Source: Campylobacterales bacterium (GTDB lineage: Bacteria > Campylobacterota > Campylobacteria > Campylobacterales > JAOZPA01). Taken from it: DNA of 34,118 bases. The notes below the pieces were generated by a model that saw nothing but the letters and a program-made list of their open reading frames with translations, made no database searches and was not told the origin of the DNA. A program made the position numbers and the translations under genes. The stretch lies in contig JAOZPA010000007.1 of the NCBI GenBank assembly GCA_029932985.1, positions 1 through 34,118 of the forward strand. The letters run 5' to 3'. Below are positions 3,293-25,428 of this stretch, one piece after another (position 1 is the first letter of the stretch; every line of letters starts with the position of its first letter).

Positions 3293-3844
3293 ATGGGATT
3301 GATATATTTAATAAATAGTTCTAAGGATGATGAGGTTCTTTTTTCACACGATGGTGCAATTTCACAGGAGTTTATCACAGAAATTTCCTCCATTATCGAG
3401 GTGACACTAAATAAACACGATATTGAGATGAAAGATAAGGTGAAAATTATGAGAAATCTTTTTGGGGTGGCAGTGGAGCAACTTCAAAATATTATGAGTT
3501 ATTCAAAAGATAGTAGGCAAAAAAATAAATCTGCTAGGGAAAGTGATGGAATTTGTATGCTTGGATATTTTACAAATAAGGAAAAATATTTCATCAAAAC
3601 TTTAAATCATATTGAAACAGAGGATAAAGATAGATTGATAGAAAAAATAGATAAAATAAACTCTATGGATAAAATAGCTCAACGAAAATACTTAAGACAA
3701 CTTTTGCGAAGTGGAGAAAATACTCATTCAAGAGGTGCTGGACTTGGATTTTTGGAGATTGCCAAACGGTCAAGTGAAAAGATAAATTACGAGTTTAAAG
3801 ATACCCCAGATGGTCTCTATTTTGAGCTTACAATATCTGTATAA
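3293..3844 (+). CDS. siaB: SiaB family protein kinase (DUF6272-like)
   Basis: ISSIIEVTLNKHDIEMKDKVKIMRNLFGVAVEQLQNIMSYS and GHKL-like C-terminus HSRGAGLGFLEIAKRSSEKINYEF; neighbours SiaA- and SiaC-like genes. Confidence 0.8.
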   Translation: MGLIYLINSSKDDEVLFSHDGAISQEFITEISSIIEVTLNKHDIEMKDKVKIMRNLFGVAVEQLQNIMSYSKDSRQKNKSARESDGICMLGYFTNKEKYFIKTLNHIETEDKDRLIEKIDKINSMDKIAQRKYLRQLLRSGENTHSRGAGLGFLEIAKRSSEKINYEFKDTPDGLYFELTISV

Positions 3845-3946: not shown

Positions 3947-6223
3947 GTGTTTAAAATTAAAGCGAAATATAAGAAATTTTCATATTTTATGACTTTGGTG
4001 ATTTTTGTCATCACATTAAGTATTATTGTGAGTTTTATTTTTTATAATAATAATGTACGGATTAAAAAAGAGATTTTTTTCATTCAACAACAGGGGCTTT
4101 TGGTGATTAAATCTCAGATGAATCTAATAAATGACAGACTTTCTATTATCAAAAATTATTCAAATAGTTTAGCTGATATGTCTAGTGATTTGGTGGAGTA
4201 CAATGAGAAGAGTATGGAGAAGATTTTGGAATCGCATTTTTTGAGAGAGATTGGGATTTTTCAGTTGAGGTTGCTTGATAGTAGTGGGATTGAGGTTATT
4301 CGGTATGATTTAAATAAAGATTCGCAGATAATTAAACGTGAGCATAATAAATTGCAAGATAAATCTGATAGATATTATTATATGGAGGCGGAAAATATCG
4401 CTTTTGATGAAATCTATTTTTCTAAGTTTGATTTAAATATGGAAAATGGGAAGATTGAGCTACCATATAAAAATACTACACGGGTGATTAAAAAGATTAA
4501 GATAGGGGTAGATATTTTTTATATTGTGATAAATTATAATATTACCGATATATTTAAAAATGTGCTTGATACAACACTTTATGACCTATTTTTAATTGAG
4601 GAGGATAAGCAGATAAATATACATTTAAATGATAAATTCTCTTTTTCAAAGCAGAAACATTTGGATATTTATTTGAATGATTTGCTAGATTATGACAATC
4701 AGTATATTACAGAAAAACCGTTAGAGGGGTTTGGATATAGGGTTGTGATAAATATTAAAAAGTCGATAATTGATTCTGCCCAACAATATAAAGAGGATGA
4801 GATTAAGAATTCGGTTATAATTGTAGCATTTATCTCATTGATTTTGTCTTTGATTATCTCATCAATTTTGGCTAGAGTTCTAACACAATTTAATAAAAAA
4901 GCAGTGAAGATAATAGAAACTGGCAAATATATTCATGGAGGTGAGTTTTATGAGTTTATGAATATTCTGAATAATTTGGAGATTCAATATAGCAAGATAG
5001 AGATTGCAAATAGAGAGTTGAAAAATTTGCTTCATTCATTTAGCCTACATGTCATCGCTAGTAAGATGGATTTAAAGGGAAAAATTACTTATGTAAGTGA
5101 TGCTTTTTGTGAAGTTTCTGGTTATCCTAGAGAGGAACTTATTGGTAAAATTCATAAAACAATGGTACATCCTGATATGCCTAAAGATTCTTTCAAAGAT
5201 TTGTGGGAAACCATAAAGACTGGTAAAAATTGGCAAGGTGATATTAAGAATATTACAAAAGATGGAAATTTTTATTGGGTAAATGCGATTATCTCTCCCT
5301 ATTATGATGAATATAATACTATTATAGGATTTAATACAATAAGACACAATATCACTGCTAGAAAAGAGGTTGAATATTTGAGTGAAAACCTTGAAAAAGA
5401 GGTGGCTCAAAGGACACAAGAGCTTCAAGAGGCAAACACACAAATTTCAAAATCACTTAATTTCGCATCCTTAATTCAAGAAACTTTTAATTATGATAAA
5501 GATATAATACAAAATGTTTTTGAGGATAGTTTTGTGGTTTTAAAGCAAAGAGATGCGGTAGGGGGCGATATAGTCTTGTTTGAGAGATTAACACCAGAAG
5601 ATGAGTATCTGGTTTTTATTATAGATTGTACCAGCCACGGAGTTCCAGGGGCTTTTGTGACGATGATTGTGAAGACTTTGCAAAGACAAATTGTCTATGA
5701 TATTATTAAGTATAATCAAACGATAAGTCCTGCTAAAATTTTGTCAATTTTCAATAAAGAGATAAAAGATTTACTGAATCAAAATAGAGAGGATTCGCTG
5801 TCAAATGTGGGTTTTGATGGGCAAATATTGTACTATAATAAAAATGATAATTTGATAAAATTTGCAAGTGCGAGAAATGATATTTTGATATATCAAGATG
5901 ATACTCTAAAGAGATTTAGAGGAGACCGACATTCTGTGGGCTACAAAGATAGTGATGAGAATTTTAAGTTTAAGGAACACACCATAGAGATAAAAGATGA
6001 GATGAGTATATATCTGTATAGTGATGGATATACCGACCAACTAAGTGATTCTCAAAGACCTATGCCTTATGGGACAAAAAAACTTATTAGAAAAATCCAG
6101 CAGATAAAAGATGAATCTATGGAAAGGCAAAGAGAGATTTTATTTGATGAGCTAGATATTCATCAAGGAGATTATGAGCAAAATGATGATATATCATTTG
6201 TTGGTTTAAAGATTAAAAAATGA
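3947..6223 (+). CDS. siaA: membrane PAS-SpoIIE (PP2C) phosphatase, SiaA-like
   Basis: N-terminal TM, extracytoplasmic domain, second TM (IIVAFISLILSLIISSIL), Aer-like PAS, SpoIIE motifs VGGDIVLFERL, IIDCTSHGVPGAFVTMI, SDGYTDQ, NDDISFVGLKI. Confidence 0.85.
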   Translation: MFKIKAKYKKFSYFMTLVIFVITLSIIVSFIFYNNNVRIKKEIFFIQQQGLLVIKSQMNLINDRLSIIKNYSNSLADMSSDLVEYNEKSMEKILESHFLREIGIFQLRLLDSSGIEVIRYDLNKDSQIIKREHNKLQDKSDRYYYMEAENIAFDEIYFSKFDLNMENGKIELPYKNTTRVIKKIKIGVDIFYIVINYNITDIFKNVLDTTLYDLFLIEEDKQINIHLNDKFSFSKQKHLDIYLNDLLDYDNQYITEKPLEGFGYRVVINIKKSIIDSAQQYKEDEIKNSVIIVAFISLILSLIISSILARVLTQFNKKAVKIIETGKYIHGGEFYEFMNILNNLEIQYSKIEIANRELKNLLHSFSLHVIASKMDLKGKITYVSDAFCEVSGYPREELIGKIHKTMVHPDMPKDSFKDLWETIKTGKNWQGDIKNITKDGNFYWVNAIISPYYDEYNTIIGFNTIRHNITARKEVEYLSENLEKEVAQRTQELQEANTQISKSLNFASLIQETFNYDKDIIQNVFEDSFVVLKQRDAVGGDIVLFERLTPEDEYLVFIIDCTSHGVPGAFVTMIVKTLQRQIVYDIIKYNQTISPAKILSIFNKEIKDLLNQNREDSLSNVGFDGQILYYNKNDNLIKFASARNDILIYQDDTLKRFRGDRHSVGYKDSDENFKFKEHTIEIKDEMSIYLYSDGYTDQLSDSQRPMPYGTKKLIRKIQQIKDESMERQREILFDELDIHQGDYEQNDDISFVGLKIKK

Positions 6224-6641: not shown

Positions 6642-7028
6642 ATGGAAAATTTACTGTATGCACAGACTCAACACACACCACAGATAGAGTTTAACGAAAA
6701 AGAGAAAACTATATCTATAACGGGAAATAGTTACCCTGAAGATTCGTTTAGTTTCTATCAGCCAATTATTCAATGGCTAAAGGAGTTTATGGGCAACTGC
6801 TCACAAAACGATACAGTCAAAGTCATTATTTTTATTGATTATATGAATTCAAGTAGCCTAAAGGTTTATTTTGAATTTTTTGATATACTCGAAGAGGGAA
6901 ATGATAAAGGTGTCAAGATAGATATTGATTGGTATTATCAAATAGATAATGATATAGCAGAGGAGACGGGAGAGGATTTTGCTTTGGATTTTGAGACACT
7001 AAATATTAAACTTATTAGTAGAAACTAG
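6642..7028 (+). CDS. siaC: SiaC family regulatory phosphoprotein (DUF1987)
   Basis: TPQIEFNEKEKTISITGNSYPEDSFSFYQPIIQWL and YMNSSSLKVYFEFFDIL signature; good RBS (caggagag). Confidence 0.88.
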   Translation: MENLLYAQTQHTPQIEFNEKEKTISITGNSYPEDSFSFYQPIIQWLKEFMGNCSQNDTVKVIIFIDYMNSSSLKVYFEFFDILEEGNDKGVKIDIDWYYQIDNDIAEETGEDFALDFETLNIKLISRN

Positions 7029-7121: not shown

Positions 7122-7928
7122 ATGAGAAATATAGATAAGGACAATATTACACTTGAAGAACTTTATAGATTATATACAAAACAAAATAATAGATTGAATA
7201 TAATTATAAAAAGAAGTGATAAGCAAGAGTTAAAATTTAGAGAATTAAATCAAGAGTTAAATGAATATAAAAATAATCTTGAAGAAAAGGTTAAAATTGC
7301 CACAAAAGAGATAGTGGAGTTGAATCTGGAGATTGAGGAAACTCAACGGGAAGTTATTTTTACTATGGGGGCGATTGGTGAAAATCGAAGTAAAGAGACT
7401 GGAAATCATGTCAAAAGAGTAGCGGAGTATTCTAAGCTTTTAGCTTTGTTTTATGGATTAGATGAGGAGGAGGCGGAGCTTTTAAGAAAAGCAAGTCCAA
7501 TGCATGATATTGGCAAAATTGCTATTCCTGATGCTATTTTAAATAAAAAAGGGCAATTTACCGATGAAGAGTTTGAGCTGATGAAGGCACATTCTCAAAT
7601 TGGCTATGATATGATAAATCAGTCAAATAGACCATTGCTAAAAACGGCGGCGATTTTGGCTTTTCAGCACCATGAGAGATTTGATGGAGATGGTTATCCA
7701 CAGGGATTAAAGGGGGAAGAGATACATATTTATGGCAGGATTACTGCCCTTGCTGATGTTTTTGATGCTTTAGGTAGTGATAGATGTTATAAAAAAGCTT
7801 GGAATGATAATCGAATATTTGATTTTTTTAAGCAGGAAAAGGGTGGCTATTTTGACCCCAGATTAGTTGATATATTTTTTGAAAATTTAGATAAATTTTT
7901 GGAAATCAGAGATAATATGAGGGATTAA
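7122..7928 (+). CDS. HD-GYP domain c-di-GMP phosphodiesterase with N-terminal coiled coil
   Basis: MHDIGKIAIPDAILNKKG, HHERFDGDGYPQGLKGEEI, RITALADVFDALGSDRCYKKAW. Confidence 0.9.
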   Translation: MRNIDKDNITLEELYRLYTKQNNRLNIIIKRSDKQELKFRELNQELNEYKNNLEEKVKIATKEIVELNLEIEETQREVIFTMGAIGENRSKETGNHVKRVAEYSKLLALFYGLDEEEAELLRKASPMHDIGKIAIPDAILNKKGQFTDEEFELMKAHSQIGYDMINQSNRPLLKTAAILAFQHHERFDGDGYPQGLKGEEIHIYGRITALADVFDALGSDRCYKKAWNDNRIFDFFKQEKGGYFDPRLVDIFFENLDKFLEIRDNMRD

Positions 7929-7957: not shown

Positions 7958-8884
7958 ATGATAAAAAGAATAGAGGAAATTTTAAATGATGAAAGATTGG
8001 ATGAAGATTTAAAAATCAAAATGAAATTTCTGCGAAATTCTGCAATTAGACAAAAACAAAGAGTTAATATAATAGTAGAGTTAAGTGATAAGTATCAAAA
8101 TAGGTTAAAAAAAGCAAATGAAGAGCTTGATGAGTATAAAAATAATCTTGAACAGCGAGTCAAAGAGGAGATTCAAAAAAATAAAGAACAGCAACTTATG
8201 ATGTTTCAACAATCTAAACTAGCTCAAATGGGTGAAATGATAACTATGATAGCCCATCAATGGCGACAACCACTAAACAGTATTAGTGCCACAAGTATAT
8301 CTGTAATTATCAAGGCAAATTTCAATCAACTAGATAGTCAAAAAATCATAAACCAGATGGAGTATATATCTAACTGTACTTCTCATTTAAGTTCTACAAT
8401 TGATGATTTTAGAAATTTTTTCAAACAAAATAAAAATAAAGAGAAAATTAATTTTTGCAATCTCATAGAGGATGTTTTAAAAATTTCACAAACCTCTATA
8501 ACTCATCACAAAATAGAAATAATCAAAGATTTACACTGCAAAGAGAGCTTTCAAACTTATGAAAATGAGCTGAAACAGGTAATCTTAAATATTATCAAAA
8601 ATGCAGAAGATGCTCTTGTAGAGAATAAAATTAAAAATCCATTTATAAAACTCAGCACCTACAACGAAAAAAATAGTTATATTTTAGAGATAAGTGATAA
8701 TGGCGGTGGCATTCCCGTAGATATAATCGATAAAGTTTTTGACTCTCATTTTAGCACAAAACTAGAAAAAGATGGTACAGGTTTGGGACTTTATATGAGC
8801 AAAACTATCATAGAGGAGCATTGTAACGGTGAACTCACCGTAACTAATAATCCAGAGGGAGCAGTGTTTAAAATTACTTTGTAG
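7958..8884 (+). CDS. soluble sensor histidine kinase (coiled coil-HisKA-HATPase)
   Basis: H-box MIAHQWRQPLNSIS; N-box IIKNAEDAL; DNGGGIP; GTGLGLYMSKTIIEEH; no TM segment. Confidence 0.9.
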   Translation: MIKRIEEILNDERLDEDLKIKMKFLRNSAIRQKQRVNIIVELSDKYQNRLKKANEELDEYKNNLEQRVKEEIQKNKEQQLMMFQQSKLAQMGEMITMIAHQWRQPLNSISATSISVIIKANFNQLDSQKIINQMEYISNCTSHLSSTIDDFRNFFKQNKNKEKINFCNLIEDVLKISQTSITHHKIEIIKDLHCKESFQTYENELKQVILNIIKNAEDALVENKIKNPFIKLSTYNEKNSYILEISDNGGGIPVDIIDKVFDSHFSTKLEKDGTGLGLYMSKTIIEEHCNGELTVTNNPEGAVFKITL

Positions 8885-8950: not shown

Positions 8951-9502
8951 TTGAAAATCTTAATACTAGGAATTGGTAATATTTTATTTGGCGATGAGGG
9001 GATTGGAGTGCATTTGGCAAATTTTTTAAAGGCAAAATATCAATTTTCGTCTGATAAACACACAGTTGATATTATCGATGGGGGAACTTTGGCTCATCAG
9101 CTCATCTCCATCATTATCGATTATAATTATGTTTTTATTTTGGATTGTGTAGATACAGATGATGGAAAAATTGGGGATGTTTATTTCTTTGATTTTGAAG
9201 ATATTCCAGATTCTATAACTTGGCAAGGTTCAGCTCACGAAGTCGAAATGCTTCAAACTTTGCAGATGATTGAGCTTATGGAAAAGTTACCAACCATTAA
9301 AATAGTTGGAGCAATTCCCCACAATATCTCCCAAAACAGCACTTTTAATCTCACAGATAAAGTCGTAAATGCCAGTTTGGCTATGGAAAATATTATCATA
9401 AAAGAGTTAAAAAATCTTTCCATTAGTGTTTTGAAATTAAAAGATGTAAAAATCAACGAAATTGCCCAAAAATCATATCTCGGTGAGGGGATTAATAGAT
9501 GA
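8951..9502 (+). CDS. hyaD: hydrogenase maturation protease (HyaD/HupD family)
   Basis: MKILILGIGNILFGDEGIGVHLANFL, IIDGGTLAHQL, FILDCVDTDD; TTG start. Confidence 0.88.
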   Translation: MKILILGIGNILFGDEGIGVHLANFLKAKYQFSSDKHTVDIIDGGTLAHQLISIIIDYNYVFILDCVDTDDGKIGDVYFFDFEDIPDSITWQGSAHEVEMLQTLQMIELMEKLPTIKIVGAIPHNISQNSTFNLTDKVVNASLAMENIIIKELKNLSISVLKLKDVKINEIAQKSYLGEGINR

Positions 9503-11800: not shown

Positions 11801-13651
11801 ATGCAAACAAAAAGAGAGTTTATGAGATTAAAGATTATTTTACCTATTAGTTTTATACTGATTTATGGTATGTTTGTTTTCACAAAAGCAAATATTAAAA
11901 ACAATAGAATAGAGTTAGAATTATCTGAGCAGGTTAAAAATTTAGAAACTCATTATCTTATGATAAAAGATTATTTTTTAACTGATGCTAGAAGTATTAG
12001 AGATAGAGTTAGGTTGAAATCTAATGTTATCGAACTATTTTCACAAGCACAAGATGCCACAGATGAGGAAAAAATAGTTTTGCGAAATAGATTATATAAT
12101 ATTGTAAAACCACTTTATGATAGAATTCATAGCAGGGGAATTTTGCAATTTCAATTTGTTTTACCAAATAATGAAAGTTTTCTAAGAGTTCATAAGCCAA
12201 CTAAATATGGTGATGATTTAACTGATATTAGGTATAGTTTCAAATATGCAAATGAGCAAAAAAAAGAGATAGAGGGGTTTGAGCAGGGGCGGACAGCTCA
12301 TGGGTTTAGATATGTATTTCCGTTTTATGATAAAAAAAACAGCCATTTAGGTTCAACTGAAATTTCTCTCTCCTCTAACTCTATTGAAAATAAATTATTA
12401 AATGTAAATAAGATTCATTCCCATTTTTTGGTTAACAAATCTATATTTTCAGTCAAAGCGTGGGAAACTAAAGATTTAATTACTAAGTATATCCCAAGTA
12501 TTGAACACAAAGATTATATGTTCACTTTGACAAATCATTCAGATATAAAAAAATTACAAGATAGTGAAAAATCTATTATTGCCCCTCTCAAAGATGAAAT
12601 TTATCGTAAAATGCCTTTGGGGAAATCATTTGCTTTATATATAGAATATAAAAATAGTGTAAAAGTGGTGACATTTTTGCCTATTAAAAATGCACAAAAA
12701 GATAAAGTTGTGGCTTATATAGTGGCTTATACGGATAATCATAATATCTATAATATCTGCAAAAATTATCGATATTCAAATATTTTTGTTTTTTTAGGAA
12801 TGTTGGTTTTGTTTTATTTTGTCTATAAAGATTTAAATTATAAGCAATTTCTAAAGAGCGAAATAGATAAAAAAACAAAAGTTTTAAATGAGTTAAATAG
12901 TAATTTGGAGTTAAAAATTAAAGATGAAGTGGATAAAAACAGACAGCAACAACTTCTAATGATGAGGCAAAATAGATTAGCCCAGATGGGTGAAATGATA
13001 AGTATGATTGCCCATCAATGGCGACAGCCCCTGAATAATTTAACTTTTTTAAATCAACTGATAGCCTTTACATATAGGAGAGGAAACTTAAATGATGAGA
13101 ATATGGAGGATTTTAATCAAAATGCGAAAAAACAGATAGAAGATATGTCTCAAACTATTAAAGATTTTAGTAATTTTTTTAAACCTCAAAAAGAGATGAG
13201 AAATTTTTGTATAAATAAAGTAATTAATAGTATAATAGAGATTTTAAATCCACTTTTCAGTAAGTACAACCTGTCGATAGAATTTATCAATATTAAAGAT
13301 ACTTTTGAGACTAATGGATTTGAAAATGAATTAAGACAAGCTTTAATAAATATTATAAATAATTCAAAAGATGCTTTGATAGAAAATGGTGTGGAAGATA
13401 AGAAAATTAAAATACAATTAAAAGAGATTGAAGGCAAGGTTATTATAAGTATTAGTGATAATGGTGGTGGGATTGATGAAGAGATAATGAATAAAATTTT
13501 TGACCCCTATTTTACAACTAAAGGGGAAAAGAATGGTACGGGGCTAGGTTTGTATATGGCAAAATTAATCATAGAGGACCACATGGATGGCAAGATTGTA
13601 GTGATAAATAGAAAAAATGGTGTGGTTTTTGATATAAGTTTAAAAATTTAA
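11801..13651 (+). CDS. membrane sensor histidine kinase with dCache_3-like periplasmic domain
   Basis: LPNNESFLRVHKPTKYGDDLTDIR sensor motif; two TM segments; MIAHQWRQPLNNL; GTGLGLYMAKLIIEDH. Confidence 0.88.
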   Translation: MQTKREFMRLKIILPISFILIYGMFVFTKANIKNNRIELELSEQVKNLETHYLMIKDYFLTDARSIRDRVRLKSNVIELFSQAQDATDEEKIVLRNRLYNIVKPLYDRIHSRGILQFQFVLPNNESFLRVHKPTKYGDDLTDIRYSFKYANEQKKEIEGFEQGRTAHGFRYVFPFYDKKNSHLGSTEISLSSNSIENKLLNVNKIHSHFLVNKSIFSVKAWETKDLITKYIPSIEHKDYMFTLTNHSDIKKLQDSEKSIIAPLKDEIYRKMPLGKSFALYIEYKNSVKVVTFLPIKNAQKDKVVAYIVAYTDNHNIYNICKNYRYSNIFVFLGMLVLFYFVYKDLNYKQFLKSEIDKKTKVLNELNSNLELKIKDEVDKNRQQQLLMMRQNRLAQMGEMISMIAHQWRQPLNNLTFLNQLIAFTYRRGNLNDENMEDFNQNAKKQIEDMSQTIKDFSNFFKPQKEMRNFCINKVINSIIEILNPLFSKYNLSIEFINIKDTFETNGFENELRQALINIINNSKDALIENGVEDKKIKIQLKEIEGKVIISISDNGGGIDEEIMNKIFDPYFTTKGEKNGTGLGLYMAKLIIEDHMDGKIVVINRKNGVVFDISLKI

Positions 13652-13652
13652 T

Positions 13653-13672
13653 ATTAGGCAAGGCGACCTAAT
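13653..13672. other. small perfect inverted repeat
   Basis: ATTAGG-CAAGGCGA-CCTAAT immediately after the upstream HK stop. Confidence 0.5.
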
Positions 13673-13699
13673 AAAAATAGTTTAGAAATGGAGTAGGAG

Positions 13700-14941
13700 A
13701 TGTTGTTAAAAAATTTTACATTACTGTATGTAGAAGATAATAATGATATGCAAAATTATATGAAATCTTTTTTGCAAAGTGAGGTGAAAGAGTTTTATCA
13801 AGCTTTTAATGGTCAACAAGGGCTTGAGATTTATAGAGACAAAAAACCTAATATTATATTAAGTGATATTAGTATGCCATTGTTGGATGGTCTGGAGATG
13901 GCTGAGGAGATTAAAAAAGATAATCGAAGGCAACCTATCTTATTAATATCAGCATTTCAAGATATGGAGACATTGAAAAAAGCGATAAATATAGGGATTG
14001 ATGGCTTTATCTCTAAGCCAATTAAGGAGCTTGAACATCTATTGGATATGATTGAGGATATTGCTCGTCATCTGCAAAATGAGATAGATGTTAAGAATCT
14101 CAAAAAAGAGGAGCAGAAAACTTGTGAGTTGAAATTTTTAAATTTAACTCTTAATAAAAAAGTAAAAGAGAAAACTCAAGAGTTAGAGGATATAAATAAA
14201 AATCTAAAAGATATTATAAAAACAGAGGTTGATAAAAATAGGGATAAAGATAAATGGTTATTGCATCAAGCAAGGCTGGTTCAGATGGGGGAGATGATAA
14301 GTATGATTGCCCATCAATGGCGACAACCGTTAAATGCAATTAGTGCAAGAAGTGCAAATATGCTCATAAAAGCACAGCTTGGTAAGCTCGATAGAGAATT
14401 AGTCATTGAGGAATCTATTAAAATAGATGAATATTCTCAAGATTTAAGCAAAACAATCAATGATTTTCGAGATTTTTTTAAACCAAATTCGATGAGAGAG
14501 CATATTGATTTTTGCTCTTTGATAAAATCGGTTTTGGGGATTTTAGAGACCTCCATCACTAGTAAAAATATTGAATTGATTTTGGATCTAAATTGTGATG
14601 ATAAATTTAATGTTTATCCAAACGAGATTCGACAAGTTATTCTAAATTTAGTTAAAAATGCAGAGGATGCACTTATTGTAAATAAAATCAAAACCCCCTT
14701 TATCAAAATTATAACTTATGTAGAAAAGGGTAAATATATTTTAGAGGTGAGTGATAATGGTGGTGGAATTTCACAAAAGATAGTTAATAAAATTTTTGAC
14801 CCCTATTTTAGTACCAAAAGTCAAAAAAATGGTACAGGCTTGGGGCTATATATGAGTAAAATTATTATTGAAGAGCATTGTAATGGTGAGATTGCTTTTT
14901 TTAATAATAAAGATGGAGCGGTATTTAAAATAATTTTGTAG
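13700..14941 (+). CDS. REC-histidine kinase hybrid
   Basis: LLYVEDNND...ILSDISMPLLDGL receiver; MIAHQWRQPLNAIS; GTGLGLYMSKIIIEEH. Confidence 0.88.
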   Translation: MLLKNFTLLYVEDNNDMQNYMKSFLQSEVKEFYQAFNGQQGLEIYRDKKPNIILSDISMPLLDGLEMAEEIKKDNRRQPILLISAFQDMETLKKAINIGIDGFISKPIKELEHLLDMIEDIARHLQNEIDVKNLKKEEQKTCELKFLNLTLNKKVKEKTQELEDINKNLKDIIKTEVDKNRDKDKWLLHQARLVQMGEMISMIAHQWRQPLNAISARSANMLIKAQLGKLDRELVIEESIKIDEYSQDLSKTINDFRDFFKPNSMREHIDFCSLIKSVLGILETSITSKNIELILDLNCDDKFNVYPNEIRQVILNLVKNAEDALIVNKIKTPFIKIITYVEKGKYILEVSDNGGGISQKIVNKIFDPYFSTKSQKNGTGLGLYMSKIIIEEHCNGEIAFFNNKDGAVFKIIL

Positions 14942-15046
14942 GTTTAGTGTTTCGCAATTGTACCCTATCAATTGAGAAATAATATGGTATTTGTGCCAAA
15001 TAGCAGGAATATATGATATTCTATTTGTAAAAGAGGGGATTAAATT

Positions 15047-17029
15047 TTGGATGAGTTACAGGAAATTATTAATTATAGTTTTGGATTAAGCTTATTATAT
15101 GTAGAGGATAATGAGTTTTCAAGAGAGGCGACTATTCCAATTTTGGAAGAGTTTTTTGGTCATATTACAGTGGCGGTTGATGGTCAAGATGGATTTGAAA
15201 AGTTTCAAAAAAAAGCTTATGATATTGTAATTTCAGATATAAATATGCCAAAACTAGATGGTCTGCAGATGACAAAAAAGATAAAAGAGGGTGGATGTGA
15301 TATTCCTGTTTTGATTCTTTCATCTTATAATGAGTCTAAATATTTTAAAGATAGTATTAAATTGGGTGTGGATGGCTATCTTCATAAACCTATTGAGATA
15401 AAACAATTTATGGATGTTTTGGGTGAAATCATAGGAAAATTGAAAAAAAGAGATAAAACTAGAAGAGATTTAGATTTTTTGTCTCAATATCAAGAAGCTA
15501 TTGACAAAAGTTCAATCGTTTCAAAAACAGATTTACAGGGGTTGATTACCTATGTTAATAGCGAGTTTTGCAAAATCTCTGAATATACTGAAGAGGAGCT
15601 TATAGGCAAAAATCATAATATTATAAGACATCCTAGCAACTCATATAGAATGTATAAAGAGCTTTGGGATACGATTAAAAATAAAAAAAAGACTTGGCAA
15701 GGGATTATGAAAAGTAGGTCAAAGAGTGGGAAAAGCTATTATGTAAAAACAGTAGTTAAACCAATTTTTGATGAAAAGGGCGAGGTGGTTGAGTATATAG
15801 CTTTGCGAAATGATATAACAAATATTATGAACCCCAGACGCCAACTTAATGATTTCATACATCCTAATGAGGAATATATGGTGATATTTATCAAAATTGC
15901 TGGTTTTGATGATATTGAAAGATTTTATGGAAACAGATTGACAGCTTTGATTGAAGATAAATTTTCTGAGAGACTTTTTGAGATTATGCCTAATAAATAT
16001 AAATTTGAAAGAATATTTCCGTTGGGGGACGGTGAATTTGTATTTATTAAAAACAGAAAAGAGATTGATTTAAGTATTAGAAATTCCATTAGAAAATTAC
16101 GACTTTTTCAAGAAATTGTAAATGACACAACTATTGAGATAGATGATGTTGATTGTGATTTGTCTATTATTATCAGTTTTGCTTGTGGCAAGGGGGCTTT
16201 GGATAATGCCAAATATGGGTTAAAAGAGTTGATTCATTCTAAGCAAAGTTTTATTGTGGCAAATGATTTTGTGAGTGAAGAGTATGATAAAGCAAAGCAA
16301 AATTTGAAAACTTTAAAGATGATTAAAAAAGCGATTGATGATTTTAGAATTGTCTCCTATTTTCAGCCAATTATCAATAATAAGACAAAAAAAGTGGCAA
16401 AATATGAGTCATTGGTGAGGTTGATTGATGAAGATGGTAAAGTTTTGACTCCATATCATTTTTTAGATGTTGCAAAAAAGGGGCAATATTACACTAAAAT
16501 AACCTCGATTGTGCTTGAAAATTCTTTTAATGCCCTTAAATATACAGATATGGACATATCTATAAATTTATCTGCATTGGATATAGAGAAAAAATCGACG
16601 AGGGATAAGCTTTATAAATTATTGGAGATTTATCGAAAAGATAACTCTCGTGTGGTGTTTGAGCTTTTGGAGGATGAGGATATAAAAGATTTTAATTTAA
16701 TAAAAAAGTTTATCAAATCTGTTAAAAATATGGGAGTGAAGATAGCGATTGATGATTTTGGCACGGGGTATTCTAATTTTGAAAGATTGCTAGATTATCA
16801 ACCAGATATTTTAAAAATAGATGGGTCTTTGATAAAAAATATAGAAAATGATAAATTTTCACTCTCGGTGGTCAAGACGATTGTAGCTTTTGCAAAGGAG
16901 CAAAATATTAAGATAGTAGCAGAGTTTGTAGAAAATGAGAAAATTTTTAATATTTTAAATGTTTTTGGAATTGATTATTCACAAGGTTATTATTTTGGTA
17001 AACCTGAAGCTTTGAAAATGATTAAGTAG
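15047..17029 (+). CDS. REC-PAS-(degenerate GGDEF)-EAL protein, candidate c-di-GMP phosphodiesterase
   Basis: REC LLYVEDNEF...VISDINMPKLDGL; Aer-like PAS; GDGEF in place of GGDEF; ESLVR in place of EALVR; IAIDDFGTGYSNFERL; ILKIDGSLI; AEFVEN; QGYYFGKP; TTG start. Confidence 0.88.
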   Translation: MDELQEIINYSFGLSLLYVEDNEFSREATIPILEEFFGHITVAVDGQDGFEKFQKKAYDIVISDINMPKLDGLQMTKKIKEGGCDIPVLILSSYNESKYFKDSIKLGVDGYLHKPIEIKQFMDVLGEIIGKLKKRDKTRRDLDFLSQYQEAIDKSSIVSKTDLQGLITYVNSEFCKISEYTEEELIGKNHNIIRHPSNSYRMYKELWDTIKNKKKTWQGIMKSRSKSGKSYYVKTVVKPIFDEKGEVVEYIALRNDITNIMNPRRQLNDFIHPNEEYMVIFIKIAGFDDIERFYGNRLTALIEDKFSERLFEIMPNKYKFERIFPLGDGEFVFIKNRKEIDLSIRNSIRKLRLFQEIVNDTTIEIDDVDCDLSIIISFACGKGALDNAKYGLKELIHSKQSFIVANDFVSEEYDKAKQNLKTLKMIKKAIDDFRIVSYFQPIINNKTKKVAKYESLVRLIDEDGKVLTPYHFLDVAKKGQYYTKITSIVLENSFNALKYTDMDISINLSALDIEKKSTRDKLYKLLEIYRKDNSRVVFELLEDEDIKDFNLIKKFIKSVKNMGVKIAIDDFGTGYSNFERLLDYQPDILKIDGSLIKNIENDKFSLSVVKTIVAFAKEQNIKIVAEFVENEKIFNILNVFGIDYSQGYYFGKPEALKMIK

Positions 17030-17050
17030 AAAAGAGGAAATAGGAAATTT

Positions 17051-19204
17051 ATGAAAATTGATGATTTAGAGAAACTAAAAAAACAAACTATCATAGGTGT
17101 TGTTTGCCTCTTTATGTTTATTATGATATATAAAATTTATTCAACTATCAATGAGTTTAATCAAAATAAAAATAGGCAAAAAACTCTGATTTTTAAGCAG
17201 ACAGATTATATTTATAATAGCAAAATTGAGTTTATTAGCAAAACATTTTTAAATAGACTTCAAAATATTATATCTGGGCAACATATCAAAGATTGTATCA
17301 AAAATAGAGATAGAGAGGCATTGTATAAATTTTCTATAGATAGATTTATGACCTTGAAAAAAGATTTTTCATCATTAAAGCAGATGCATTATCACTTGCC
17401 AAATCATACCTCTTTTTTGAGAATCCATAAACCTAAAATTTTTGGGGATAATTTGAAGGAGAAACGACCCCTCATCGCAGAAACAATTAAGAGTAAAAGT
17501 ATGCAAAAAGGGTTTGAATCTGGAATTTATGACAAAAAAAGTATCACTTATCGAATAGCTATCCCAATTATGGAGGATGAAAAATTACTTAGTGTAGTTG
17601 AGCTGGGTATCGACATAAAAGGGATTTTGGCACAGATAAATAGTTTTCTAAATGCTAGTTACAATAAAGAGATTTATATAGGTTCTCTACTTTTAAAAGA
17701 TACTAAATTTTTAAAAAACAAAAAAGATAGGATAGATTTTAGCAATTATAAATTAATCTCCTCTCATCTAATTATCAAAGAGATTTTGAGAAAAATTAAT
17801 CCTGCAAAAAATAAGCAAAATATAGAACTTAATGGTAGGGATTATTTTATTTTTTGGAATCAAGAAAAATTAGAAAATTTTAAAAATCAAGAGGTTGGTA
17901 CATTTATTTATGCTTTTGACATAACTGATATAAAAAATAATTTCAGATTAAAGATGTTATTTGCAATAATTCACCCACTTGGTATGATGTTTCTTTTTCT
18001 TTTTATCCTTTTAATTGTCTTTAGATATATAAAAAAGCAAATCAAATTAAATACTATAAAGATTAAAAAAATTGTAAATAACCAAAAATCAATAGTTATC
18101 ATAACTGATGGTAAAAAAATAATTCAAGCAAATAGTAGTTTTTGCAAATTTCTAAAATGTAAAAGTTTAGCTATGTTTTTAAGCAAATATGATTGTATCT
18201 CTGATAAATTTGAAAATATTGAAGGTTATTTGCAAAAAGATAATGATGGTCAGAATTGGTTGGAATTTATGAGAACTCATAAAAACATAAACCATATAGT
18301 TAAAATTATAGACAATGAAAATAATACTCATATTTTTTCTGTAAATTTAGATAATTTTAAACAAGAGAAAGGGATGGAGTTTGTAGTCTCTTTTGAAGAT
18401 ATTACACAAGCAAAAGTGCTATATAAAAAAAATAAAGAGTTAAATGAGCTAAATGAGTTAAATGAAAATCTTGAAAAAAATCTTATGGAAAAAGATAAAC
18501 AACTTCTTCAGCAATCAAGATTTGCTCAAATGGGTGAGATGCTGAGTATGATAGCCCATCAATGGCGACAACCTCTAAATGCGATTAGTGCGACAAGTAT
18601 ATCTGTAAATCTTAAGTCAAAACTTGGCAAATTAAAACCTGAAGACTTAGTGAACTATATGGAAAATATATCTAATTATTCTCAACACTTAAGCCAAACT
18701 ATTAATGATTTTCGAGATTTTTTTAAATCAAATAAAGATATTAAAGAGGTTAGTTTTTGTCAACTTATAGAATCGGTTTTGGGGATTATTGAAATATCAA
18801 TTGAAACTAAAGGTATAAAATTAATCAAAGAGCTTGAATCTAAAGAGAAATTTAATACTTATCCAAATGAGATAAAGCAAGTGATTTTGAATTTAGTAAA
18901 AAATGCGGAGGATATACTTTTAGAAAAAAATATCAAAAATCCATTTATTAAAATCAAAACTTATAAAATTGAAGATAACCATATTTTGGAAGTTGGAGAT
19001 AATGGTGGTGGTGTGCCTGAAAAGATAATAGACCATATTTTTGACCCCTATTTTAGCACAAAGGGAGATAAAGATGGTACTGGACTGGGGCTTTATATGA
19101 GTAAAACTATTATAGAAAAACATTGTGGTGGAAAGCTTAGTGTTTTTAATGATAATAATGGTGCTGTATTTAGAATAAAATTATTCAATATAAGGGAAAA
19201 TTAG
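17051..19204 (+). CDS. membrane sensor histidine kinase with dCache_3-like sensor
   Basis: LPNHTSFLRIHKPKIFGDNLKEKRP; TM segments; MIAHQWRQPLNAISATSIS; GTGLGLYMSKTIIEKH. Confidence 0.88.
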   Translation: MKIDDLEKLKKQTIIGVVCLFMFIMIYKIYSTINEFNQNKNRQKTLIFKQTDYIYNSKIEFISKTFLNRLQNIISGQHIKDCIKNRDREALYKFSIDRFMTLKKDFSSLKQMHYHLPNHTSFLRIHKPKIFGDNLKEKRPLIAETIKSKSMQKGFESGIYDKKSITYRIAIPIMEDEKLLSVVELGIDIKGILAQINSFLNASYNKEIYIGSLLLKDTKFLKNKKDRIDFSNYKLISSHLIIKEILRKINPAKNKQNIELNGRDYFIFWNQEKLENFKNQEVGTFIYAFDITDIKNNFRLKMLFAIIHPLGMMFLFLFILLIVFRYIKKQIKLNTIKIKKIVNNQKSIVIITDGKKIIQANSSFCKFLKCKSLAMFLSKYDCISDKFENIEGYLQKDNDGQNWLEFMRTHKNINHIVKIIDNENNTHIFSVNLDNFKQEKGMEFVVSFEDITQAKVLYKKNKELNELNELNENLEKNLMEKDKQLLQQSRFAQMGEMLSMIAHQWRQPLNAISATSISVNLKSKLGKLKPEDLVNYMENISNYSQHLSQTINDFRDFFKSNKDIKEVSFCQLIESVLGIIEISIETKGIKLIKELESKEKFNTYPNEIKQVILNLVKNAEDILLEKNIKNPFIKIKTYKIEDNHILEVGDNGGGVPEKIIDHIFDPYFSTKGDKDGTGLGLYMSKTIIEKHCGGKLSVFNDNNGAVFRIKLFNIREN

Positions 19205-21400
19205 ATGAGTAGAAACATATTTTATAGTACAAAAGAGTGGATTAGGGAAAAAATAAAGATAAATACCTCTTTTTTTATTAATTTATTTGTAATTATTTCA
19301 ATTCTTATATTTTCAGTTTTGTGGTATGAAAAAACTAATAAGTTATCAGACCACTTAGTAAGTAGAACCAATCAGAATATTGGAAAATATAATGCTTTAT
19401 ATAAAACTCATATTAAATTAGCCCGATTGATATTTCAAACGCAGATAAATACAAAAGAGGTTAAAGATATATTTAAGTTTGCAGAATTATCCTCTAATGA
19501 GGATAAGCAGATTATTCGAGATAGATTATATAATAAACTAGAAGAAAAATTTATTTTGTTAAAAAGAGATAATAAAATTAGGCAATTAAATTTTTATTTA
19601 CCAAATAAAGAGATGTTTTTGAGATTTAATAAACCAACCCAATATGGAGATGTTTTGAGAAGTCATCAAATATTTAGAGAGCCTCTTAATAAATGTGAAA
19701 AAAATGAGGCATGTATCTCTTCTCGTTTTATATTTTCACTTTTTGCAGAGAATAGAGAGATAGGTAGTGTGGAGGTTTCATTTATTTCATCCTCTATGAG
19801 TTTAGATTTTATGGATACTTATCAACTTCCTGCAGTTTTTCTGATTTTAAAAGATAATATAGATGAAAAAGAGTTTTTAAATTCAGGCAGAAAATTTTCT
19901 AAAACTGTTTTTAAAGATTTTTATTTAAATAATGTTGTGATAAAACAGGAGATTAAAGGTCTTAAAATTTTAAAACTTCTATCTGAAGATACTATAAAAA
20001 TTGTTAATAAAAAAGCTTTTGATAAAAAATCTTTCTCAATTTATGCTAATGAAAATGGGATTATGACTTTTATAAAAATTAAAGATTTTTCAACTGATAA
20101 AGTAACTGGTATGCTTGTAATTAGAGATAATGCAAATTACTATCGTGAAAAAATTAATCTTACCTATATTATTATCTTTATTTCTATATGCGTTTATGGA
20201 ATGTTTATTTATTTTTTACATTATCGAAATAATCTAGAGATAAAAATGAAACAAAATAATAAAAAACTAGAATCTATCTTCAAGGAAGCTCATAGTGGAA
20301 TTGCATTAGTTGATTTAAATGGTAAAATTTTAGAGATGAACAATTCTTATAGTAAATTATTGGGCTATTCAGAAAAGGAGTTATTAGAATTAAATTTTCA
20401 AGATATTAGAACCTCCCAAGAAGATGAAGCAAAAGAGATTTTGAGAAAAGCTAAAATTTATCACACTCTTTCAAAGGTGGAGAAAACTTGCAAAACCAAA
20501 GATAATAGAGAGATTCATTTGGAATTTTCACTAACTCTTCTCCCCTCTAAAGATGCTTTTATTACAGTTATAAACTCTTTGGAGGATAAGTTTAAATTAA
20601 AAAAATTAAATGATGAGTTGAAAAATTTCAATGATACTTTAAAAGAAAAAGTTAAAGATGAGGTGGAAAAAAATCGGGAAAAAGATAAGCAAATGTTTCA
20701 TCAATCTCGATTAGCTCAGATGGGAGAGATGATAAGTATGATTGCCCATCAGTGGAGGCAACCGCTAAATGCAATTAGTGCTACAAGTACAAATTTGAAC
20801 TTTAAAGCTCGACTTAATAAGATAAATAATGAGATAGTTTTAAATGAAACTGTAAATATCAATAAATATTCACAATATTTAAGTGCAACAATTGATGATT
20901 TTAGAAATTTTTTTAAACCCAATAAAAATAAAGAGGAGATAACTTTTTGCAAGTTAATAGATTCGGTTTTGGGAATTATTGAAATCTCGATAGAAAACAA
21001 AAAGATAAAACTGATACAAAATCTAAAATGTAAGGGTACATTTATAACCTATCCAAATGAGTTAAAACAGGTGATTTTAAATTTGATTAAAAATGCTGAA
21101 GATGTTCTTTTGGATAAAGATATAGAAAACCCATTTATCAAAATTTCGACCTATACATATCAGGATACCTATATTTTAGAGGTTGAAGATAATGGCGGTG
21201 GTGTGCCTTATGAAATTATGGATAAGATTTTTGACCCATATTTTAGTACAAAAATGCAAAAAGATGGAACAGGTTTGGGACTTTATATGTCTAAAACAAT
21301 TGTAGAGGAGCATTGTGGGGGAGAACTTACTCTTTCTAATAGTTCAAATGGAGCAATATTTAAAATTAAATTAAAAAAAGGAGTTTTAGAAAATGATTAA
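19205..21400 (+). CDS. membrane dCache_3-like-PAS-histidine kinase
   Basis: LPNKEMFLRFNKPTQYGDVL; PAS GIALVDLNGKILEMNNSYSKLLGYSEKEL; MIAHQWRQPLNAIS. Confidence 0.88.
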   Translation: MSRNIFYSTKEWIREKIKINTSFFINLFVIISILIFSVLWYEKTNKLSDHLVSRTNQNIGKYNALYKTHIKLARLIFQTQINTKEVKDIFKFAELSSNEDKQIIRDRLYNKLEEKFILLKRDNKIRQLNFYLPNKEMFLRFNKPTQYGDVLRSHQIFREPLNKCEKNEACISSRFIFSLFAENREIGSVEVSFISSSMSLDFMDTYQLPAVFLILKDNIDEKEFLNSGRKFSKTVFKDFYLNNVVIKQEIKGLKILKLLSEDTIKIVNKKAFDKKSFSIYANENGIMTFIKIKDFSTDKVTGMLVIRDNANYYREKINLTYIIIFISICVYGMFIYFLHYRNNLEIKMKQNNKKLESIFKEAHSGIALVDLNGKILEMNNSYSKLLGYSEKELLELNFQDIRTSQEDEAKEILRKAKIYHTLSKVEKTCKTKDNREIHLEFSLTLLPSKDAFITVINSLEDKFKLKKLNDELKNFNDTLKEKVKDEVEKNREKDKQMFHQSRLAQMGEMISMIAHQWRQPLNAISATSTNLNFKARLNKINNEIVLNETVNINKYSQYLSATIDDFRNFFKPNKNKEEITFCKLIDSVLGIIEISIENKKIKLIQNLKCKGTFITYPNELKQVILNLIKNAEDVLLDKDIENPFIKISTYTYQDTYILEVEDNGGGVPYEIMDKIFDPYFSTKMQKDGTGLGLYMSKTIVEEHCGGELTLSNSSNGAIFKIKLKKGVLEND

Positions 21401-22568
21401 TTTAGAAAAATTGGTCTCAGAGAGTCAAAAATTAATATTACTATATGTAGAAGATAATGCGGATGCTAGAGAATCTTCTATGAATATGTTTGAGGATTTG
21501 TTCCCAAATATTATAATTGGAGTTGATGGTGAGGATGGTCTGGAAAAATTTAAAGAGAACAAGATAGATTTAATTATCACAGATATTCAGATGCCTAAAA
21601 TGAATGGTTTTGAGATGGTTAGAGAGATTAAAAAGCTAGATAATAAAGTTCCTATTTTGGTTTTATCAGCCTTTAATGAGAGTGATTATTTTTTAGATAG
21701 CATTCGGCTAGGGGTGGAGGGGTATCTTTTTAAACCTATTGACCTTGACCAATTTTTGGAAACAGTTTCTAAAACTATCGATAATATTAAGCTGAAAAAA
21801 GAGGTGGCTGAGTATCAACATTCTTTAGAAAAAAAAGTAGATAAGCAACTTCGCTATTTAAGAGAAAAAGATAAAATTCTTTTACAGCAATCAAAAATGG
21901 CAACAATGGGTGAAATGATAGATGTAATTGCCCACCAATGGAAACAGCCTCTAAATATTATATCAATGAATAATGAGATATTGATGATGAATGAGATGAT
22001 GGGAAAATCAGTTAAACCAGAAACTACTCTAAGTTACAATGAAAAAATTCAAAATCAGATAGAACATTTAGTTAGTACGATTGATGAATTTAGAACTTTT
22101 TTCCGCCCAAATCAAAATTTTGAAAAAATTAATATAAAAAATATTTTACAATCAACTATTCTTTTGATAGAGGATGAATTAACCCATCACTCTATCGAGA
22201 CTGAAATTTTATGTGAAGATACTATTTTTATAAAAACAAATGCAAATGATATAAAGCATTATATTTTAAATATGATTAATAATGCCATTGACAAAATGGA
22301 TGAAGACAATATAAAAAATAAAAAGATTTTATTGACTTGTAGCGAAAAAGATGATAAAATTAGCTTAAAAATTAAAGATAATGGCAACGGAATACCTGAA
22401 AACATAATAGGTGAAATTTTTAAATCTCATTTTACGACAAAAAGTAAAACTGGTGGTACGGGAATGGGGCTTTATATGTGTAATTTAATTGCCAATAAAT
22501 ATGATACTAAATTGGAAGTATATAATGATAATGGAGCTGTTTTTGAAATTAAATTGCCTAAGTTATAA
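21393..22568 (+). CDS. REC-histidine kinase hybrid
   Basis: LLYVEDNADARESS...IITDIQMPKMNGF; VIAHQWKQPLNII; GTGMGLYMCNLIANKY; starts 8 nt inside the preceding gene. Confidence 0.88.
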   Translation: MINLEKLVSESQKLILLYVEDNADARESSMNMFEDLFPNIIIGVDGEDGLEKFKENKIDLIITDIQMPKMNGFEMVREIKKLDNKVPILVLSAFNESDYFLDSIRLGVEGYLFKPIDLDQFLETVSKTIDNIKLKKEVAEYQHSLEKKVDKQLRYLREKDKILLQQSKMATMGEMIDVIAHQWKQPLNIISMNNEILMMNEMMGKSVKPETTLSYNEKIQNQIEHLVSTIDEFRTFFRPNQNFEKINIKNILQSTILLIEDELTHHSIETEILCEDTIFIKTNANDIKHYILNMINNAIDKMDEDNIKNKKILLTCSEKDDKISLKIKDNGNGIPENIIGEIFKSHFTTKSKTGGTGMGLYMCNLIANKYDTKLEVYNDNGAVFEIKLPKL

Positions 22569-22571
22569 ATA

Positions 22572-24224
22572 TTGAAGTTTATATCTCTAGTTTTGCTATT
22601 TATCATAAATTTATCTTCTGCTGAATCTAATAATATGATTTTTACAATGCAGGAGAAAAATTATTTAAATAATATCAAAATAGTGAAAATGTGCAATAAT
22701 CCCAATTGGCCCCCCATCGAGTTTGCTCAAGATGATAATTTAAATAAGATGAATGGAATCGCTATTGATGTACTCAAGGAGATTGAGCAGAAATTAAATA
22801 TAAAATTTCAAAATGTAGCGACCAAAAACTGGAGTGAGTCTCAAAAATATCTTAAAGAGAAAAGATGTGATATATTGCCCTGTGCGATTGAGACTCAAAG
22901 CAGAAAAAAATATGCAAATTTTACACAACCATATCTAAGTTTGCCTCTTGCAATTTTTACCACAAAAGATAAACCATTAATCTCAAGTTTAGATGAAATT
23001 ATAGATAAGACTTGGACACGAAAAAAAGGCTCAGGGCTTATATCTCAAATTCAAGAATCATATCCAAAGATGAAAGTTTTTGAAACTATTGATAATACAG
23101 AAGCCCTAAAATTGGTAAATGATGGTGAATATTATTTCACAATTGCCACTATTCCTGTCGCCTCCCATATAATTTCAAAATATATGTTAAGCAATCTTCA
23201 AATTAGTGGCTATACAGATATGAAATTTGACCTTTCAATTGCAGTAAGAGATGATGATATTTTACTCTTGTCTATTTTAAATAAAACATTAAGTGATACC
23301 TCTAATCAAAAACTAAAAGATATTTTAAAAAAATGGGTTTCATCTCCTATAAAAGAGCCTATAACTGATTATATATTTATTGGTCAAATATTTCTGATAT
23401 TTACGCTAATTGTCTTAATTCTTCTATTTTTTCTTTTACGAGAATCAAAACTCAAAAAGGAAATTTTAGAACTAAATACTTTTTTAGAACAAAGAATTGA
23501 AGATGAAGTTATTAAAAATCAAGAACAGCAAGTTATGATGCTTCAACAATCCCGTCTAGCTCAAATTGGAGAGATGCTAAGTATGATAGCCCACCAATGG
23601 CGACAACCACTAAATATATTATCGGTAAATGCCTCTCTTTTAGAGCTTAGAATCCAACGAAATAAAATTGATAATGAGTTTTTTAAAGGAAAATTAAAGA
23701 TAATTATTGCCAATTCCGAGCATCTAAGTTCCACTATTGATGATTTTAGAGATTTCTTCAAACCCAATAAAATAGAAAAAGAGATAACTTATTGTGAAAT
23801 AATAAAGAATGTTTTAGATATAATAAAAGAATCTATAATTCAGAAAAATATTATACTTAAAGAAGATTTAAATTGCAATACCGTTTTTAAAGCCTATTCA
23901 AATGAAATTAAGCAAGTAATTTTAAATTTAATTAAAAATTCAGAAGATATTTTGCTAGATAAAGAGATTAAAAATAGATATATAAAAATTAAAACTTATA
24001 AAGAGTCAGATGAATTTATACTAGAGATAAGTGATAATGGTGGTGGAATTGATGAAAAGATTATAGACAAAATATTTGACCCATACTTTAGCACAAAAAG
24101 TCAAAAAGATGGTACGGGATTAGGGCTTTATATGTCCAAAATAATTATAGAAAATCACTGTGGTGGTAAATTAACTGTATCTAATCAAAAAGATGGTGCT
24201 GTGTTTCAAATAAGATTAAAATAA
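22572..24224 (+). CDS. SBP_bac_3 (periplasmic solute-binding)-TM-histidine kinase
   Basis: Signal peptide; VKMCNNPNWPPIEFAQ...GIAIDVLKEIEQKL; TM FIGQIFLIFTLIVLILLFFLL; MIAHQWRQPLNIL; TTG start. Confidence 0.88.
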   Translation: MKFISLVLLFIINLSSAESNNMIFTMQEKNYLNNIKIVKMCNNPNWPPIEFAQDDNLNKMNGIAIDVLKEIEQKLNIKFQNVATKNWSESQKYLKEKRCDILPCAIETQSRKKYANFTQPYLSLPLAIFTTKDKPLISSLDEIIDKTWTRKKGSGLISQIQESYPKMKVFETIDNTEALKLVNDGEYYFTIATIPVASHIISKYMLSNLQISGYTDMKFDLSIAVRDDDILLLSILNKTLSDTSNQKLKDILKKWVSSPIKEPITDYIFIGQIFLIFTLIVLILLFFLLRESKLKKEILELNTFLEQRIEDEVIKNQEQQVMMLQQSRLAQIGEMLSMIAHQWRQPLNILSVNASLLELRIQRNKIDNEFFKGKLKIIIANSEHLSSTIDDFRDFFKPNKIEKEITYCEIIKNVLDIIKESIIQKNIILKEDLNCNTVFKAYSNEIKQVILNLIKNSEDILLDKEIKNRYIKIKTYKESDEFILEISDNGGGIDEKIIDKIFDPYFSTKSQKDGTGLGLYMSKIIIENHCGGKLTVSNQKDGAVFQIRLK

Positions 24225-24258
24225 TTACATTGAGAGAATTTTAAAAGGATAATGAATA

Positions 24259-25428
24259 ATGAAGAACTTGGAAAAAACAATAAAAGAGAGTTTTAACCTA
24301 AAGCTATTGTATGTGGAGGATAATGCTGAGGCAAGAGAGACTTCTTTGGATATTTTTGAAGAGTTTTTTGATAATATCGTAGTGGCAGTTGATGGTGAAG
24401 ATGGGTTGGAAAAATTTAAGAATAATGATATTGATTTGATTATTACAGATATTTATATGCCAAAAATGAGTGGACTAGAGATGACAGAAGAGATACGAAA
24501 ATTTGATGAAAATATTACAATTTTGGTTTTATCCGCATATACTCAAACCGATTATTTTCTTAAAAGTATCAAGCTAGGAGTTAGTGGCTATCTTTTTAAG
24601 CCCCTAAATCTCAAACAATTTACGACAAGTATCTATAAATCTGTACAAAATATCAATCTCAAAAAAGAGAATATTGCATATAAAAATTCGCTAGAGGAGA
24701 AGATTCAAGAACAAGTTGAGATTTTAAGAGAGAAAGATAATCTGCTTTTACAACAATCCAAAATGGCAGCAATGGGGGAGATGATTGATATAATAGCCCA
24801 CCAATGGCGACAACCGCTAGGGTTAATTTTGTTAAATGCAGACCTTTTGTATATGAATGCTGAAGATAATAAAAAAATAGCTCAGCAAGATATTTTTAAC
24901 CACTGCAATAAAACATCAGAACATATCAAGTTTTTATCTTCCACCCTTAACGAATTTAGAAATTTCTTTAGGTCTGATTTGAATATTAAAGAAATATCTA
25001 TAAAATCCCTTTTTGAGTCAATCACAGTTTTACTTCACGATGCTTTGGTTGAGGATCAGATAGAGATTGAAATTATGGCTGAAGATGATATTTTGATAGA
25101 TGCAAATGCAAATGATATAAAACATTTAATTATAAATTTAATTAGCAATGCTAAAGATAAATTAAAAAGTAATAATGTTAGAAATCGAAAAATTTGGTTA
25201 AAATCTTGGCAGAAAAATGGTAAAACTACCATAGAAGTTAGAGATAATGGTGGTGGAATTCCTGAAGAGATAATAGACAAAATCTTTAAATTAAATTTCA
25301 CTACAAAATCTGATAATGGCGGAACTGGAGTGGGGCTATATATGTGTAAATTAATAGCCAATAAATATCATGCTCTTTTAAGTGTTTCAAATGACAATGG
25401 AGCTGTATTTAAAATTACTTTTGGCTAA
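24259..25428 (+). CDS. REC-histidine kinase hybrid
   Basis: LLYVEDNAEARETS...IITDIYMPKMSGL; IIAHQWRQPLGLI; GTGVGLYMCKLIANKY. Confidence 0.88.
   Translation: MKNLEKTIKESFNLKLLYVEDNAEARETSLDIFEEFFDNIVVAVDGEDGLEKFKNNDIDLIITDIYMPKMSGLEMTEEIRKFDENITILVLSAYTQTDYFLKSIKLGVSGYLFKPLNLKQFTTSIYKSVQNINLKKENIAYKNSLEEKIQEQVEILREKDNLLLQQSKMAAMGEMIDIIAHQWRQPLGLILLNADLLYMNAEDNKKIAQQDIFNHCNKTSEHIKFLSSTLNEFRNFFRSDLNIKEISIKSLFESITVLLHDALVEDQIEIEIMAEDDILIDANANDIKHLIINLISNAKDKLKSNNVRNRKIWLKSWQKNGKTTIEVRDNGGGIPEEIIDKIFKLNFTTKSDNGGTGVGLYMCKLIANKYHALLSVSNDNGAVFKITFG

Follow-up and report, generated by a model that had tools for sequence, protein, structure and literature searches.

The partner-switch phosphoproteins of the SiaC (DUF1987) type have been described as widespread, and the single output given in the literature that we found is the diguanylate cyclase SiaD. 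The SiaABCD system of Pseudomonas aeruginosa comprises the kinase SiaB (DUF6272), the membrane PP2C phosphatase SiaA, SiaC with a phosphosite in a loop, and an output protein whose stalk carries a SiaC-binding motif (PLoS One 0241019; eLife 67289). On SiaD, the residues touched by SiaC span R74 to D91; among them, S82 and Q86 meet T68 of SiaC (eLife 67289). The locus described here shares these elements, but in this genome the stalk is carried by histidine kinases (HKs) and an HD-GYP phosphodiesterase rather than by a SiaD diguanylate cyclase, a Ser replaces T68, and the sensor part of SiaA differs (PAS). Two further likenesses concern the HK array of the same locus. Like the GacS/RetS hybrid network of P. 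aeruginosa, it has many sensor kinases with related transmitters and few outputs, but it uses REC-HK fusions where GacS/RetS has hybrid kinases and HPt, and its one response-regulator output is an EAL protein, not a transcription factor. Its EAL protein shares its architecture (41–58% identity) with other Campylobacterota REC-PAS-(GGDEF)-EAL regulators, which are paired with an upstream HK gene that often overlaps; here, by contrast, the gene directly upstream encodes a REC-HK, with another five kinase genes downstream.

The window, which is the whole stretch of DNA analyzed (34,118 nt), is contig C185 of a Campylobacterales genome (G000; 2.43 Mb, 210 contigs). We lean towards reading its signaling genes (Table 1) as a two-part, multi-input hub for c-di-GMP, formed by a kinase array and a SiaC switch.

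Table 1. Signaling genes and predicted SiaC-docking stalks in the window.
Feature	Position	Strand	Evidence
SiaB-like protein kinase (DUF6272)	3293..3844	+	PF19788 116 bits; beside SiaC in most relatives examined
SiaA-like membrane PP2C phosphatase: sensor domain, PAS, SpoIIE	3947..6223	+	PF07228 61.5 bits, PF21623, PAS
SiaC regulatory phosphoprotein (DUF1987)	6642..7028	+	PF09345 122.7 bits; PDB 6kko/6kkp/7e6g E=1.8e-15
HD-GYP, predicted c-di-GMP phosphodiesterase, N-terminal stalk	7122..7928	+	HD_5 111 bits; PDB 4mcw E=1.6e-62; HHERFDGDGYP motif
Predicted SiaC-docking stalk on HD-GYP, LYRLYTKQNNRLNIIIKRSDKQELKFRELNQELNEYKNNLEEKVK	7161..7295	+	profile A1 E=4.3e-16 in whole genome; leave-window-out HMM 2e-11
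HK1, soluble histidine kinase, N-terminal stalk	7958..8884	+	HATPase_c 69.9 bits, HisKA
Predicted SiaC-docking stalk on HK1, LRNSAIRQKQRVNIIVELSDKYQNRLKKANEELDEYKNNLEQRVK	8030..8164	+	profile A1 E=1.8e-14 in whole genome; leave-window-out HMM 6e-6
HK2, dCache_3 membrane HK	11801..13651	+	PF14827 29.4 bits, HATPase_c 68.5 bits; specificity residues NNFL
REC-HK3	13700..14941	+	REC 82.5 bits, HATPase_c 60.4 bits; DHp NAAR; likely HK2 target
REC-PAS-degenerate GGDEF-EAL response regulator, predicted c-di-GMP phosphodiesterase	15047..17029	+	EAL 190.5 bits, REC 80.8 bits, PAS
HK4, dCache_3 membrane HK	17051..19204	+	PF14827 69.2 bits, HATPase_c 64.2 bits; NAAT
HK5, membrane HK, dCache-like + PAS	19205..21400	+	HATPase_c 68.4 bits, PAS; NAAT
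REC-HK6	21393..22568	+	REC 86.1 bits, HATPase_c 70.4 bits; NIMN
HK7, SBP_bac_3 periplasmic-binding membrane HK	22572..24224	+	PF00497 76.9 bits, HATPase_c 68.9 bits; NIVN
REC-HK8	24259..25428	+	REC 82 bits, HATPase_c 66.7 bits; GLLN

Kinase array: gene content

ORF and Pfam analysis bore out the initial annotation of positions 11801–25428 as seven HKs and one EAL protein, encoded consecutively on the same strand with no DNA-binding regulator, and likewise its pattern of membrane HK(s) followed by a REC-HK, the latter architecture being present in three of the seven kinases. Intergenic gaps along the array are, in order, 48, 105, 21, 0, -8, 3, and 34 bp, and a scan for promoters and terminators returned counts near the shuffled expectation. 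All seven kinases are intact in the HQW[RK]QPL phospho-His box, the N box, and the G boxes; the HisKA domain of REC-HK8 falls below the Pfam reporting threshold, although its HQWRQPL box is there. The acidic pocket, Asp, and Lys are kept by all four receivers, namely those of the three REC-HKs and the N-terminal REC of the EAL protein. That last receiver was overlooked in the initial annotation, which had given the array neither an HPt domain nor a transcription-factor output; the domain search indeed found no HTH domain in the array and no HPt to link its receivers as a multi-step phosphorelay would require (about five HPt domains occur elsewhere in the genome). With an N-terminal REC on the EAL protein, however, the array has a true response-regulator output, a predicted c-di-GMP phosphodiesterase.

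The catalytic Glu, Asn, Asp-Asp, Lys, and Glu of the EAL domain are conserved in this protein (sequence and alignment to 6ifq). An active cyclase was rejected for its GGDEF part, which has a degenerate motif (LGDGEF) and is probably inactive. The closest named relatives of the REC-PAS-EAL protein come from Campylobacteraceae MAGs and the Arcobacter sp. EP1 MAG (48–52%).

Kinase array: predicted wiring

In EnvZ/PhoQ-type kinases, specificity is set by the residues at H+7, +8, +11, and +12. In the window these read NAAT in HK4 and HK5, NSAT in HK1, and NAAR in HK3, versus NNFL in HK2, NIVN in HK7, NIMN in HK6, and GLLN in HK8. In nine other genomes a kinase gene directly precedes the REC-PAS-EAL orthologue, and eight of these nine kinases have A at H+8, A/S at H+11, and A/S/T at H+12, compared with 21 of the 46 HQW kinases of this genome (hand count). 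For four of the nine upstream kinases, HK5 is the best match among those 46. HK3, HK4, and HK5, with residues (NAAR, NAAT, and NAAT) like those of the kinases encoded just before REC-PAS-EAL genes elsewhere, are predicted to phosphorylate the REC domain of the REC-PAS-EAL phosphodiesterase. HK5 and HK4 may also drive REC-HK6; the alpha1 motif EDNxx[AS]RE is common to the receivers of the EAL protein, REC-HK6, and REC-HK8, and these three form a loose group on the REC tree.

For the first kinase pair, one other genome offers a parallel: at locus L035, the gene for an HK2-like kinase (56%) overlaps one encoding a REC-GGDEF protein, whose receiver matches that of REC-HK3 best (50%, next 44%); a REC-PAS-EAL gene lies in the same cluster. 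HK2 would thus phosphorylate the receiver of REC-HK3, which in turn would gate its own kinase. HK7 would drive REC-HK8, a pairing proposed from adjacency, whereas the other HK-REC pairings are proposed from adjacency together with a few specificity residues.

These observations bear on the earlier suggestion of a multi-input array converging on c-di-GMP. Part of the array probably does converge, given HK5-like kinases preceding REC-PAS-EAL elsewhere and the HK2-like/REC3-like pair in a c-di-GMP cluster. The specificity residues of HK2, HK7, HK6, and HK8 differ, so convergence of all eight is not required. It could instead be supposed that HK2-REC3, HK5-REC6, and HK7-REC8 are insulated pairs that act alone on separate, unlinked outputs, with no convergence on the EAL protein. 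The differing specificity residues of HK2, HK7, and HK4/5 would fit such insulation, as would the finding that none of the relatives examined showed the whole array, the recurring parts there being an HK with REC-PAS-EAL and, at L136, a REC-HK with an EAL gene. We nevertheless regard it as unlikely, in view of the HK4/HK5-like kinases directly preceding REC-PAS-EAL in nine other genomes, the likeness of the EAL, HK6, and HK8 receivers, and the renewed co-occurrence of REC-HKs and REC-EAL at L136.

SiaC partner-switch genes

Upstream of the array, on the same strand, the genes run in the order siaB, siaA, nucleotidyltransferase, siaC, HD-GYP, and HK1. The SiaC loop has a phosphorylatable Ser: YMNSSSLK aligns with YLNTSSIK of P. 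aeruginosa SiaC, so that NSS corresponds to N67-T68-S69 with Ser at the T68 position. A SiaB-type kinase and a PP2C-type SiaA are encoded at the same locus and on the same strand. The small gene between siaA and siaC (6220–6573) encodes an MNT-type nucleotidyltransferase, an orthologue of which (61%) lies near a SiaC locus in L150. No stalk-bearing SiaD diguanylate cyclase was found in the genome; the stalk matches in it are the HD-GYP protein, two HKs, and one hybrid HK, with none on a GGDEF protein.

HK1 had been counted in the initial annotation as an eighth HK near the array. The kinase is real, but the hydrogenase maturation genes hycI and hypF (8951–11703) stand between the SiaC operon and the array, and its link to SiaC had been missed: HK1 follows siaB-siaA-siaC and carries a SiaD-type stalk. 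The SiaC switch thus appears to have been redirected to a c-di-GMP-degrading HD-GYP protein and a histidine kinase as predicted docking partners, and we infer that it feeds both c-di-GMP breakdown and His-Asp signaling. In the proposed scheme, SiaB would phosphorylate SiaC and SiaA would dephosphorylate it; unphosphorylated SiaC would dock on the stalk helices of both HD-GYP and HK1 and alter their coiled-coil state, thereby switching c-di-GMP hydrolysis and HK1 autokinase activity. The specificity residues of HK1 are near-identical to those of HK4 and HK5, so HK1 could feed the same receivers. No paper on SiaC with an HK or HD-GYP output was found in the open-access literature.

A predicted docking stalk for SiaC

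The N-terminal helices of HK1 and HD-GYP contain a motif of the SiaC-contact type (VNIIVELSDKYQNRL in HK1, LNIIIKRSDKQELKF in HD-GYP). A 16-row stalk profile (A1), seeded near SiaC genes, had four matches in the whole genome: HD-GYP, HK1, a kinase beside a second SiaC gene (contig C51), and a hybrid kinase on contig C75. Searched against 177,635 PDB sequences, the profile placed SiaD (7e6g_A) first with E=0.0016, the next match having E=0.91, and the aligned residues were 66–100. When the window rows were left out of the profile, the array kinases HK2–HK8 gave no convincing match. An AlphaFold2 model of HK1 (six-row alignment, mean pLDDT 83) shows one helix, residues 16–121, spanning from the stalk to DHp His100. 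The C75 protein (G000 C75:15016-18153; L064:8517-11654) is a BvgS-like hybrid kinase with SBP_bac_3, HisKA, two REC domains, and HPt, encoded inside another HK array; its stalk lies between the membrane and the DHp domain, just before the latter.

The stalk was found in 10 of 12 SiaC-bearing genomes versus none of 48 others among 60 relatives, and in 9 of 13 versus none of 285 among 298 genomes of the phylum (p=1.6e-14, treating related genomes as independent). Since its seed rows came from the surroundings of SiaC genes, the profile has its fair test in the non-seed figures and in matches unlinked to SiaC. With seed genomes removed, the stalk occurs in 6 of 10 SiaC genomes versus 0 of 285 (p=2.4e-10, again treating related genomes as independent), and matches unlinked to SiaC were found at G023 C40 and C89, G029 C8, G049 C92, and G004 C129. 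Carriers in relatives include HD-GYP proteins, histidine kinases, PAS-GGDEF proteins, PP2C phosphatases, a class III cyclase, and a HATPase-CheX protein; some stalks stand alone.

The resemblance might be that of a generic coiled-coil, with HK1 and HD-GYP binding no SiaC. The stalk is a short, helical segment of 45 residues, the direct match of HK1 to SiaD is weak (E about 1.5 in a small pool), and the 35 SiaD residues searched alone against 1,312 local ORFs returned stalk proteins at the top but the HD-GYP and HK1 of the window lower, at E of about 1. We consider such a generic resemblance improbable, however, as SiaD ranks first among all PDB sequences, over its SiaC-contact residues, just four proteins match in this genome, and in both genome surveys the stalk is restricted to SiaC-bearing genomes. 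We find it reasonably probable that the SiaC-binding stalk works as a portable docking domain, by which one Ser/Thr switch would govern HKs, HD-GYP, GGDEF, class III cyclases, and PP2C, and would join partner switching to His-Asp signaling through direct SiaC-kinase contact; here it would feed a kinase whose specificity type matches that of the adjacent array. The 45-residue motif would then predict SiaC targets from sequence, with histidine kinases and the opposite class of c-di-GMP enzyme among those predicted, and cross-talk between Ser/Thr partner switches and two-component systems, if true, becomes open to direct binding assays.

In other Campylobacterales genomes, a class III nucleotide cyclase and PP2C phosphatases carry SiaC-type stalks (L174:121-1113, L168:1462-2316, L177:826-1671). 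A stalk protein with HATPase_c and CheX adjoins SiaC at L143:4069-6027 and is possibly a SiaC-controlled receiver-phosphatase protein.

Origin of the array kinases and genome context

Kinase-core trees built from this genome (46 rows in one, 56 in another) did not bring the window kinases together. REC-HK6 and REC-HK8 are sisters (100/99), their REC domains are mutually nearest (63% identity), and the next relative of the pair is the kinase at the second SiaC locus on C51 (97/93); kinases of this type are rare, being found in 3 of 119 other genomes at E<=1e-75. HK4 and HK5 share about 38% identity, aligned over most of their length, and the AU test does not reject them as a clade (p-AU 0.43). 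HK2 is placed with the tandem array on contig C118 and HK7 with a REC-HK on C152, while HK5, HK4, HK1, and HK3 are dispersed among kinases from many contigs. The origin proposed in the initial annotation, in which one ancestral kinase copied in place gave rise to all eight HKs of a phosphorelay, is very unlikely: apart from the REC-HK6/REC-HK8 and HK4/HK5 likenesses that speak for it, a single clade of window kinases is rejected (p-AU 6.8e-15), the window label changes 7 times on the tree versus 7.6–7.7 with shuffled labels (i.e., clustering is no greater), and the C118 array of the same genome does form one clade. Tandem duplication was accordingly ruled out as the general origin and survives for REC-HK6/8, the only clear duplicates, with duplication of HK4/HK5 possible. 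The array appears to have been assembled mainly by recruitment of unrelated kinases plus one duplication (REC-HK6/8), and would exemplify a kinase-rich genome building a c-di-GMP hub through recruitment rather than tandem duplication.

Genome G000 has 79 HATPase_c, 61 REC, and 7 EAL matches. The seven HKs of the window form its largest HK cluster, followed by those on C75 (five), C118 (five), and C152 (four); such arrays recur across the genome and are not unique to the window. The C118 cluster (G000 C118:2-11278; L069) has five HKs in a row, in one clade and with no receiver gene in the run, and by its phylogeny reads as a real tandem-duplication array. The 46 HQWRQPL-type kinases of the genome have very similar DHp helices, and the EDNxx[AS]RE motif is present in few receivers, suggesting that two-component signaling in this organism may operate as a many-to-few network.
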